The notes beneath the pieces were generated by a model. That model worked only from the letters and a program-made list of their open reading frames with translations, searched no databases and was not told the DNA's origin. From an uncultured Nitrospiraceae bacterium (GTDB lineage Bacteria > Nitrospirota > Thermodesulfovibrionia > Thermodesulfovibrionales > SM23-35), in the NCBI GenBank assembly GCA_937138415.1, contig CAKZPA010000036.1, positions 1 through 42,041 on the forward strand: DNA of 42,041 nucleotides, in the 5' to 3' direction. A program made the translations under genes and the position numbers. This document shows, piece after piece, positions 36,243 to 38,690 of the stretch. Every line of letters starts with the position of its first letter. Within the stretch, counting starts at the first letter, position 1.

Positions 36243-37820
36243 ATGACTTCTAAAACATCCTCGAAATCTTTCTGGTTCTTGCCCTCCATTGCAGAATTTA
36301 TTTTCATCCTCATTCTCGTACTTATTCTGAGAGGAGAGAGCCACCTCCTCGGCGATGGGGATACCGGCTACCACATACGCGCGGGCGAATACATCATCGA
36401 CAACCGAACGATACCGCACCATGACATCTTCTCACACATCGAGCCCCCGCTCGAGTGGACGGCCCACGAGTGGCTATCCGAGGTTTTCATGGCACTCGTT
36501 CACAGAGCCGCCGGACTCACGGGGATCGTCGTGGCATTTGCGACTCTGATATCCCTCGCTTTTTTCGTGCTCTTTAAATTCCTGAGGGCCAGCGGGACAG
36601 GTATCCTGGTTGCCGCAATGGTCGTCATTTTCGCCGCCAGCGTGTCCACGATACATTGGCTCGCTCGGCCGCACGTCTTTTCTCTCCTCATAACCCTCGT
36701 TTGGTACATGGTCCTCGATACCCATCAGTACAGAGAGAAAAATCGTCTCTACCTCCTGCCACCCATCATGCTCCTCTGGGTGAATCTCCACGGTGGCTTC
36801 ATTTTAGGGTTGGTGCTGATCGGGGTGTACATCGCGGGCAATCTTTTCATCGCGATATGGCGAAGCGACGCACGGCAGAGCGCACGGCGGAAGATAAAAA
36901 ACCTGTCTCTGTGGTTCCTGGTTTGCCTCCTGGCGACATTGCTCAACCCGAAGGGATACAAGATTCTCCTCTTTCCTTTCGGTGTTATCGGGAACACATA
37001 CCTCATGGATCACGTCAATGAATTTCTTTCGCCGAATTTTCATGAACACCTGATCTACGAGTATATGCTCCTTTTCATGATTCTCGTTTTCTGCAGCTCG
37101 ATAGTGAAGCTTAATGCAATCGAGATACTGCTCGTCCTCCTCTTCACCCACATGTCCCTCTACTCAGGGAGATATATCCCTCTCTATGCGATTATCCTGA
37201 GTCCCATCCTCGCACGGCAGATCGACCACCTGTTGCAGGAACGGAGCGCGCGCAGTATCGTGAAACGGTTTCTCCGTCTGTCCGCACGGACGGCCGAAAC
37301 AGATGCCGCGGCAAAATACCTGCTCTGGATGATAGGAGCTATTGTCGTGTCAATCGTTCTGGTTCTTACGCAGCAGGTCTCTCATCGATTCGACAGAGAC
37401 GAAGCGCCACTTCAGGCTCTTGAATTCATAATGAATGAACACATACCGGGGAACATGTTCAACGACGACGAGTTCGGCGACCACATCATTTACGCCGCAT
37501 GGCCCCGGTACAGGGTATTCTTCGACGGCCGGTCCGATATGTACGGGACGGAGAGATTGAAAGAATATTTTAGGGTAATAGCGGCAAAGCCGGGCTGGGA
37601 AGAAGTTTTTAAAAAATACGACATTACGTGGGTTATGTACAAAACTAATTCCACTCTGACGAGTTTTCTCCTCGAGAGAAAAGACTGGCACCTCATCTAT
37701 TCCGACAAGGTCGCGAGCATCTTCGTAAAGAACATTCCTGAAAACCGCTATCTTATTGAAAAGTATCCTGCTGTAAAACCGGTGATAGTGGAAGAAGAGG
37801 ACGATAAAGAGAAGATATGA
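36243..37820 (+). CDS. Polytopic membrane protein, possible GT-C-type glycosyltransferase
   Basis: A 525-residue protein with about 10-11 membrane helices to residue 375, then a soluble C-terminal domain of about 150 residues. The first loop has GDGDTGYHIRAGEYIIDNRTIPHHDIFSH, with acidic residues placed as in the first extracytoplasmic loop of GT-C enzymes that use lipid-linked sugars. WVNLHGGFILG and, in the soluble part, YAAWPRYRVFFDGRSDMYG are conserved in a family I have met in environmental genomes without a function. It could glycosylate pili or envelope components, which is inference from position only. There is no clear ribosome site; a stop lies four codons upstream, so the ATG is forced. 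Confidence 0.7.
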   Translation: MTSKTSSKSFWFLPSIAEFIFILILVLILRGESHLLGDGDTGYHIRAGEYIIDNRTIPHHDIFSHIEPPLEWTAHEWLSEVFMALVHRAAGLTGIVVAFATLISLAFFVLFKFLRASGTGILVAAMVVIFAASVSTIHWLARPHVFSLLITLVWYMVLDTHQYREKNRLYLLPPIMLLWVNLHGGFILGLVLIGVYIAGNLFIAIWRSDARQSARRKIKNLSLWFLVCLLATLLNPKGYKILLFPFGVIGNTYLMDHVNEFLSPNFHEHLIYEYMLLFMILVFCSSIVKLNAIEILLVLLFTHMSLYSGRYIPLYAIILSPILARQIDHLLQERSARSIVKRFLRLSARTAETDAAAKYLLWMIGAIVVSIVLVLTQQVSHRFDRDEAPLQALEFIMNEHIPGNMFNDDEFGDHIIYAAWPRYRVFFDGRSDMYGTERLKEYFRVIAAKPGWEEVFKKYDITWVMYKTNSTLTSFLLERKDWHLIYSDKVASIFVKNIPENRYLIEKYPAVKPVIVEEEDDKEKI

Positions 37821-37865
37821 AATATGTTGATATGTGTAGATAATTTCCCTCTTAACCTCTTCCGC

Positions 37866-37888
37866 CCTCCCCTTAAGTTAAGGGGAGG
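37866..37888. repeat. Left palindrome of the DUF559 unit
   Basis: CCTCCCCTTAA-G-TTAAGGGGAGG, a perfect 11-bp palindrome with a single central base. It is followed inward by TGACGGTGGAGG, the 'tail'. The right-hand palindrome at 38318-38340 has the same layout in inverted orientation. Confidence 0.85.
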
Positions 37889-37927
37889 TGACGGTGGAGG
37901 TATGTCAAAAGGGGACAAAGGGGAGTT

Positions 37928-38362
37928 ATGAGCTTTTTGCGTAATGATCCTGCATTTAAGAAAAGGCGACAAAAACTGGGACGTAATCAGACTAACGCTG
38001 AGAAGGTGTTGTGGTCAAAGATAAGAAACAGACAGTTTCATGGATTAAGATTCTTACGCCACTATAGCATAGGGGCCTATATCCTCGACTTCTGTTGCCC
38101 TAAAGCAAAAATAGTTGTTGAGTTGGACGGAGGCCGACATAACGAAAATTTGGCTATAGAGTATGATGCAGCGCGTTCAGAATACCTGGAAGCACTTGGG
38201 ATAAGTGTATTTCGGTTTTGGAACCATGATGTGCTTTTTGATTTACATGCTGTTTTGTCCAGATTGGAAGCCGAGATAAAACACTCTCATCTTACCCAAA
38301 ATCATAACGCCCCCTATCCCCCTCTCACCTTAAGAGGGGGTTCCGGACATGCACGCTATTAA
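37928..38362 (+). CDS. DUF559 (Vsr-like/PD-(D/E)XK) endonuclease
   Basis: A 144-residue protein of the DUF559 family, related to the very-short-patch repair nuclease fold. NQTNAEKVLWSKIRNRQFHGLRF is the family N-terminus; the catalytic core is D54 in YILDFCCPKAKIVVELDGG with E65 and D67. The last 19 residues (from about 126, NAPYPPLTLRGG) are encoded by the palindromic repeat, so the natural family C-terminus ends before it. The gene is visibly more AT-rich than its neighbours, a sign of transfer. AAGGGGAG lies close before the ATG. Its function in the cell is unknown; a role in moving the repeats is considered in the findings. Confidence 0.88.
   Translation: MSFLRNDPAFKKRRQKLGRNQTNAEKVLWSKIRNRQFHGLRFLRHYSIGAYILDFCCPKAKIVVELDGGRHNENLAIEYDAARSEYLEALGISVFRFWNHDVLFDLHAVLSRLEAEIKHSHLTQNHNAPYPPLTLRGGSGHARY
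38318..38340. repeat. Right palindrome of the DUF559 unit
   Basis: CCCCCTCT-CACCTTA-AGAGGGGG, an 8-bp stem preceded by CGCCCCCTATCC as the inverted 'tail'. It encodes the C-terminus of the DUF559 protein and carries the AGAGGGGG ribosome site of the DUF192 gene. Confidence 0.82.
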
Positions 38363-38690
38363 CACCCGCACCGGTAAAATTTTAGCCACCAATGTCAAAG
38401 TCGCCGACACCCTATTCACCCGGATGAAAGGCCTTCTCGGCAGGAAAGACCTGCCTCAGGGAGAAGCCCTCTGGATCAAGCCGTGCTTTTCTGTCCATAC
38501 GTTCTTCATGAAGTTCCCCATAGATGTACTCTTTCTTGACAAGGAGAACCAGGTCATCGCAGTTTTGAGCGACCTCAAACCTAACCGCCTCACAAAGCTG
38601 TATCCGACCGCATTCAGCGTTCTCGAACTCCCGACCGGAACAATTGATGCCACAGATACAGCACTTGGAGATCGAATCGCAATGAAGTAA
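38349..38690 (+). CDS. DUF192 family protein
   Basis: A 113-residue DUF192 protein. TRMKGLLGRKDLPQGEALWI, SVHTFFMKFPIDVLFLD and a closing ELPTGTID...GDRIAMK are the full family pattern. Function of the family is not established; members are often exported, but this one has no signal peptide. It overlaps the DUF559 gene by 14 bases, and its ribosome site AGAGGGGG (8 bases before the ATG) is one arm of the repeat hairpin, so folding of the mRNA could hide the site. Confidence 0.92.
   Translation: MHAINTRTGKILATNVKVADTLFTRMKGLLGRKDLPQGEALWIKPCFSVHTFFMKFPIDVLFLDKENQVIAVLSDLKPNRLTKLYPTAFSVLELPTGTIDATDTALGDRIAMK

Follow-up and report, generated by a model that had tools for sequence, protein, structure and literature searches.

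Can a Vsr-like DUF559 nuclease take the place of the RAYT transposase in a unit that spreads or maintains hairpin repeats? REP and REPIN sequences belong to the most frequent small repeats in bacteria, and so far they have been tied to one nuclease, the HUH transposase RAYT. The question is raised by a locus in the window, i.e. the whole 42,041-nt stretch of Nitrospiraceae DNA analysed here, where a DUF559 gene lies between two palindromes. A preliminary description had read this locus as a nuclease bracketed by two related, inverted units whose G-rich tails point inward, and had compared it to the layout of REP-associated transposases.

Both palindromes and their G-rich tails were indeed present and bracket the DUF559 gene from 37866 to 38340 (Table 1). 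The left palindrome (CCTCCCCTTAA-G-TTAAGGGGAGG) has arms of 11 bp without a mismatch, the right one (CCCCCTCT-CACCTTA-AGAGGGGG) arms of 8 bp and a loop of 7 nt, and on the gene side each is followed by a G-rich tail region with GTTATG at its end. When one unit is inverted, the palindromes show 74% similarity across 23 nt and the tails (37910-37931 vs. 38302-38323) 77%, in agreement with related units in inverted orientation with inward tails. Folded as single DNA strands, both hairpins lie 3.0-4.0 SD below shuffled sequence. In hairpin orientation the 5′ foot reads CCGCCCTCCCC on the left and CGGAACCCCC on the right.

Table 1 Features of the DUF559 locus and its two neighbouring genes (window coordinates)
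Feature	Position	Strand	Basis
Upstream flanking gene, 525-aa predicted membrane protein	36243..37820	+	No Pfam match
Left hairpin, REP-like, perfect 11-bp palindrome	37866..37888	+	Palindrome alignment, folding
Left inward G-rich tail region	37889..37931	+	Tail-like stretches GGTGGAGGTATG and AAAGGGGAGTTATG
DUF559 nuclease gene, 144 aa	37928..38362	+	Pfam PF04480 (E 6e-34); alignment; structure model; fold comparison
Right inward tail, CATAACGCCCCCTA (inverse of TAGGGGGCGTTATG)	38304..38317	-	Translated as C-terminus of the DUF559 frame
Right hairpin, REP-like	38318..38340	-	Palindrome alignment, folding
Downstream flanking gene, DUF192 protein	38349..38690	+	Pfam match

The ATG of the DUF559 gene falls within the left tail motif GGGGAGTTATG. 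Thus, the repeat also gives the gene its Shine-Dalgarno-like run and its start codon, the source of both being the second tail stretch (AAAGGGGAGTTATG). Comparable gene starts (GAGGGGGCGTTATGAAG and similar) were found at four other loci (L024, L040, L043, L072). At its other end the reading frame continues across the right tail and palindrome and enters the beginning of the DUF192 gene. Its final 19 codons (HNAPYPPLTLRGGSGHARY) had been taken as repeat throughout; about 13 of them are right tail and palindrome, while the remaining six are flank overlapping the DUF192 start. Likewise, the gene had been called AT-rich against its surroundings, which applies mildly to most of them (42-44% GC vs. 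47-57%) but not to the end of the upstream gene, where GC content falls to 40%. Eight nt separate the end of the window copy, and with it the G-rich arm of the right hairpin (AGAGGGGG), from the DUF192 start codon downstream (38318-38349). This arm could serve as Shine-Dalgarno sequence of the DUF192 gene, whose original one may have been replaced by the insertion.

The nuclease was described as a Vsr-like DUF559 protein, and the window protein bears this out. Besides its match to the Pfam family, it carries all of the residues E25, D54, E65, D67 and H71; E, D, ExD and H are invariant in an alignment of 29 relatives. The predicted structure (mean pLDDT 89.4) matched NGO0050 of Neisseria (3hrl, Z 14.4), the homing endonuclease I-Bth0305I (3r3p, Z 10.5) and Vsr (1vsr, 1cw0; Z 9.0). 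As modelled, the protein has a Vsr-like nuclease fold with its predicted active-site residues intact. A profile search identified the gene as DUF559 and not as Y1_Tnp; the HUH-tyrosine domain by which a REPtron is recognised is therefore absent from its product. An Rfam search of the window gave no match. PADLOC gave only a marginal DpdF match, and we therefore make no claim of a defence system.

In the window's own genome DUF559 occurs at three further places (one full domain, two truncated), and C-rich/G-rich hairpins lie near all of them. Of 100 additional genomes from the window's family and order, 42 contained DUF559, with up to ten copies per genome, many of them decayed. Under one hairpin rule, the 65 loci of this sample had a left hairpin in 50 cases, a right one in 46 and both in 37. 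A second sample of 75 usable loci came from named genomes picked by protein similarity alone (Nitrospirae, Deltaproteobacteria, Alpha-, Gamma- and Zetaproteobacteria, Patescibacteria, Gastranaerophilales, Chloroflexi, Omnitrophota and others); here a left hairpin was found at 67 loci, a right one at 60 and both at 54. Tails pointed inward 42 and 31 times and outward 6 and 8 times in the first sample, and 52 and 45 vs. 4 and 9 times in the second. Among control windows taken from this DNA, only 2.1% (13/607) and 1.3% (9/707) contained such a hairpin, and mock genes never had hairpins on both sides (0/221 and 0/271, 0/492 in all). Given these control frequencies, the arrangement in the window is not due to chance. 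Hairpin pairing thus surrounds most of the sampled DUF559 relatives, in at least eight bacterial phyla, as had been expected if the repeats belong to the gene. The reverse pattern, DUF559 genes without repeats where repeats are common, was also looked for and did not overturn the association.

These counts bear on another explanation of the locus, in which the gene is an ordinary Vsr-like one for repair or defence and the hairpins beside it act as terminators or control translation. The Shine-Dalgarno-like run and start codon supplied by the left tail would suit such a role, and in the gtrS lineage of Pseudomonas aeruginosa (L219) DUF559 occurs without visible hairpins. However, terminators are not expected to stand on both sides of a gene as inverted, tail-matched hairpins, of a kind that is also dispersed over the genome and correlates in number with the gene (see below), nor would an ordinary gene be expected in up to ten, often decayed, copies per genome. 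We consider this explanation very improbable.

Repeat and nuclease also vary together. The similarity between left and right tail of a locus was 0.32 vs. 0.16 in shuffled pairs, a value reached in none of 5000 shuffles. Furthermore, the more similar two DUF559 proteins are, the more similar are the tails of their loci (Mantel r 0.50, p 5e-4; 0.32 among pairs below 60% identity). In part this co-variation reflects the shared ancestry of a linked unit, but it does show that the ends remain with the gene. At the level of sequence it supports a putative recognition of hairpin and tail by DUF559. In a set of 101 genomes, CCCCTY...RAGGGG palindromes were counted against a reversed-pattern control, and their excess was positively correlated with the number of DUF559 genes (rho 0.59; partial on Y1 counts 0.52; within-family permutation p 2e-4), while Y1 counts were only weakly related to the palindromes once DUF559 was taken out (partial 0.20). 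Some palindrome-rich genomes, G017 among them, gave no DUF559 match, which incomplete assemblies may hide.

The hairpins might instead belong to another REP system, driven by RAYT or some further transposase, to which DUF559 was attracted, e.g. as a homing-type nuclease that cuts REPs and is copied in by repair. RAYT as the mobiliser of these hairpins was rejected: under a stricter rule hairpins stood on both sides of 26 of the 65 DUF559 loci but of only 1 of 25 Y1 (RAYT-type) transposase genes in the same genomes, and two palindrome-rich genomes with DUF559 (G039, G047) have no Y1 gene at all. The wider idea of an attracted nuclease draws on the homing endonuclease domain being the closest solved relative after 3hrl, and on whole doublets flanking some DUF559 genes, as though the gene had come to lie between or inside repeats. 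It is at odds with the small share of palindrome number explained by Y1 once DUF559 is counted and with the way in which DUF559 type is tracked by repeat type. On balance we regard it as unlikely.

Copies of the hairpins away from DUF559 genes were inspected in stretches of three genomes (G045, G100, G031). Neighbouring hairpins are mostly doublets with a spacer of 4-10 nt and outward tails, as in ATAACCCCTCCTTA-hairpin-AATAA-hairpin-ATGGGGGAGTTATG, and among the hairpin pairs counted in these stretches none had both tails inward. The dispersed copies thus have REPIN topology. At some DUF559 genes (L022, L053) a further hairpin or a whole doublet lies outside the inner hairpin, and this may be the reason why the gene-adjacent hairpins point inward. 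In the window's own genome the hairpin family is sparse, with few dispersed copies, but one gene-less unit of two hairpins was found at C5:1781-1863.

Several other repeats came to light in the course of this search. The window (contig C36) itself begins within a dispersed repeat (1-80), consisting of the hairpin CCCCCTTATCGTAAGGGGG plus GAGATTGCCGCGTCCCGCTTTCAGCGGGACTCGCAATGACA; the same 77 nt open contig C44, and the second half recurs in about a dozen copies across the genome. The assembly probably broke at this repeat. In E. coli, ycjD (L215, sapF-ycjD-fabI) is a DUF559 gene; 3363 of 5426 genomes have it together with its surroundings. The adjoining CCCTCACCCCAACCCTCTCCC belongs to a repeat, which may be boxC; a stretch of 41 nt from it recurs elsewhere in E. 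coli genomes. Between dsbA and smc of Sinorhizobium (L214, 1860-2010), DUF559 stands beside palindromes of the CTCCCCC..GGGGGAGATGCCCGGCAGGGCAGAGGGGG type, which presumably resemble the rhizobial RIME repeats. Neither locus provided an empty counterpart: a strain lacking ycjD has other genes upstream of fabI and is not a clean empty site, and the Sinorhizobium candidate turned out to be an internal deletion of DUF559.

For the window locus an empty site was seen in a genome of the same family (G008), as judged by protein-level synteny. There, the ortholog of the membrane-protein gene (54-59% protein identity) is followed after about 140 nt by the DUF192 ortholog (63%), with neither hairpin nor DUF559 in the interval. 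With one relative, this synteny is compatible with gain as well as with loss of the cassette. A clearer insertion history is provided by cassettes within reading frames. In G000 (L005, C9:61800-63037) a DUF559 cassette of about 150 aa lies in frame between the two halves of HsdS, the type I specificity subunit. Its palindromes are translated as PSSPVPFSQGEKG and PPSPPGRGVGGEG, and at the protein level it is placed between FEPVR and FPARLVDSELG, where an HsdS of Acetobacter has a short linker. A second in-frame cassette was found in G013 (L027, C18) near the C-terminus of a type III Mod protein homologous to 6k0w; this Mod protein of G013 carries another translated palindrome (LTPAPSPEGEG) near its N-terminus. 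In Synechocystis a DUF559 cassette separates two parts of a DUF1156/N6_N4 methylase gene. Translation can pass through the hairpins, which allows the unit to lie within a reading frame such as those of HsdS and Mod.

What moves the gene is less uniform. In G100 several shortened relatives of the L043 cassette (L234-L238) end at repeats outside the hairpins, which we call ISL3-like on the assumption that they correspond to the ends of the ISL3 family. L043 and these copies are miniature ISL3-like elements in which the cassette is full, internally deleted or reduced to one hairpin, and form a decay series. In an apparent recent pair (L063/L064) agreement continues past the hairpin. Neither case was accepted as proof of hairpin-to-hairpin transposition, as the shared sequence runs beyond the hairpins or stops at ISL3-like repeats. 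Outer repeats were scored by an alignment-based scan, a strict motif scan having given only 2-4 pairs. Matching outer repeats were recorded for about 12-16 of the 59 cassettes (roughly a fifth to a quarter); 16 reach an 18/24 match, a level reached by 2.7% of mismatched pairs, and a few of these 16 are outer hairpins rather than ISL3-like ends. At the window flanks the scan found no ISL3-like terminal repeats, the match of 14/24 being within the range of mismatched pairs.

Because the recent copies seen in relatives have ISL3-like or other repeats as their outer limits, beyond the hairpins, their movement need not be brought about by DUF559, and some gene movement is probably due to DDE transposases. 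Extended to all loci, this would make DUF559 and its hairpins the passive cargo of DDE-type transposases acting on outer terminal repeats (ISL3-like GGTTCTTC...GTGTGGGTA, MITE-like). The G100 copies, the cassettes with matching outer repeats and the L063/L064 pair all fit such a role. Most loci, the window included, lack outer repeats, however, and it would leave unexplained why hairpins accompany DUF559 in many phyla, why tail and nuclease co-vary and why doublets are dispersed without outer repeats. As a general explanation it appears unlikely.

We favour the reading, with a probability of roughly 0.6, that the window contains one copy of a unit made up of REPs and a nuclease, with a Vsr-fold DUF559 protein in the position of RAYT (HUH tyrosine transposase). 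The proposed likeness to REP-associated transposases holds as regards bracketing across phyla, co-variation, copy-number correlation, doublets, the empty site and in-frame insertions; it falls short where the recent copies of relatives are bounded by outer repeats. Probably, these hairpin repeats are spread or maintained by the DUF559 nuclease, as a partner that has so far been overlooked. It would recognise the hairpin plus tail, probably single-stranded during replication or transcription, and nick near the tail. Nicking could lead to excision, copying or repair-driven conversion, through repair or re-ligation, and in this way spread doublets, and now and then the process might take the DUF559 gene to a new site. 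While co-variation speaks for recognition, we infer the cutting and spreading of repeats by DUF559. Whether DUF559 proteins form a second, RAYT-independent class of REP-processing enzymes across many phyla, with the widespread CCCTCTCCC...GGGAGAGGG...GGGTGAGGG palindromes as their non-autonomous REPINs, seems to us an evenly balanced question. If true, an enzyme would be assigned to these repeats and a function to the widespread but functionally uncharacterised DUF559 family; the palindromic in-frame insertions in restriction-modification genes would be explained as well.

Among the openly licensed papers searched, none was found that links DUF559, COG2852 or YcjD to REPs; earlier work may exist. 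Several known systems share single traits with the unit. Vsr, the EDxHD homing endonucleases (I-Bth0305I) and NGO0050 have the same fold and acidic/histidine active-site pattern, whereas here hairpin repeats flank the gene instead of an intron, intein or methyltransferase partner. Like IS200/IS605 elements the unit has a single gene between hairpin ends, but these ends are inverted hairpin-tail units and the gene is not an HUH transposase. Rickettsia palindromic elements and CGTC REPs resemble it in their in-frame palindromes within genes and in having no known transposase, CGTC REPs being reported without a dedicated one, but differ in sequence tag (PMC3733652). MITEs with ISL3-like ends contain some DUF559 cassettes of relatives, while these ends are absent from the window copy and from most others.

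The closest parallel is the REPtron, i.e. RAYT (TnpA-REP) with its REPs and REPINs (PMC6006769, PMC3733652, PMC3116915). In both, a nuclease gene lies between inverted hairpin repeats, each nuclease type has its own repeat type, repeats are dispersed as inverted doublets and in-frame repeat insertions occur in genes. RAYT REPtrons seem not to move as a unit (PMC6006769). In contrast to the HUH-tyrosine enzyme of the REPtron, the enzyme here is of the Vsr-fold PD-(D/E)XK type, the 5′ hairpin foot lacks GTAG/GTGG, the G-rich 3′ tail is of several types, and DUF559 reaches up to ten nuclease copies per genome across many phyla. On the favoured reading the DUF559 unit works like a REPtron yet is not one, having neither an HUH domain nor a GTAG guide.
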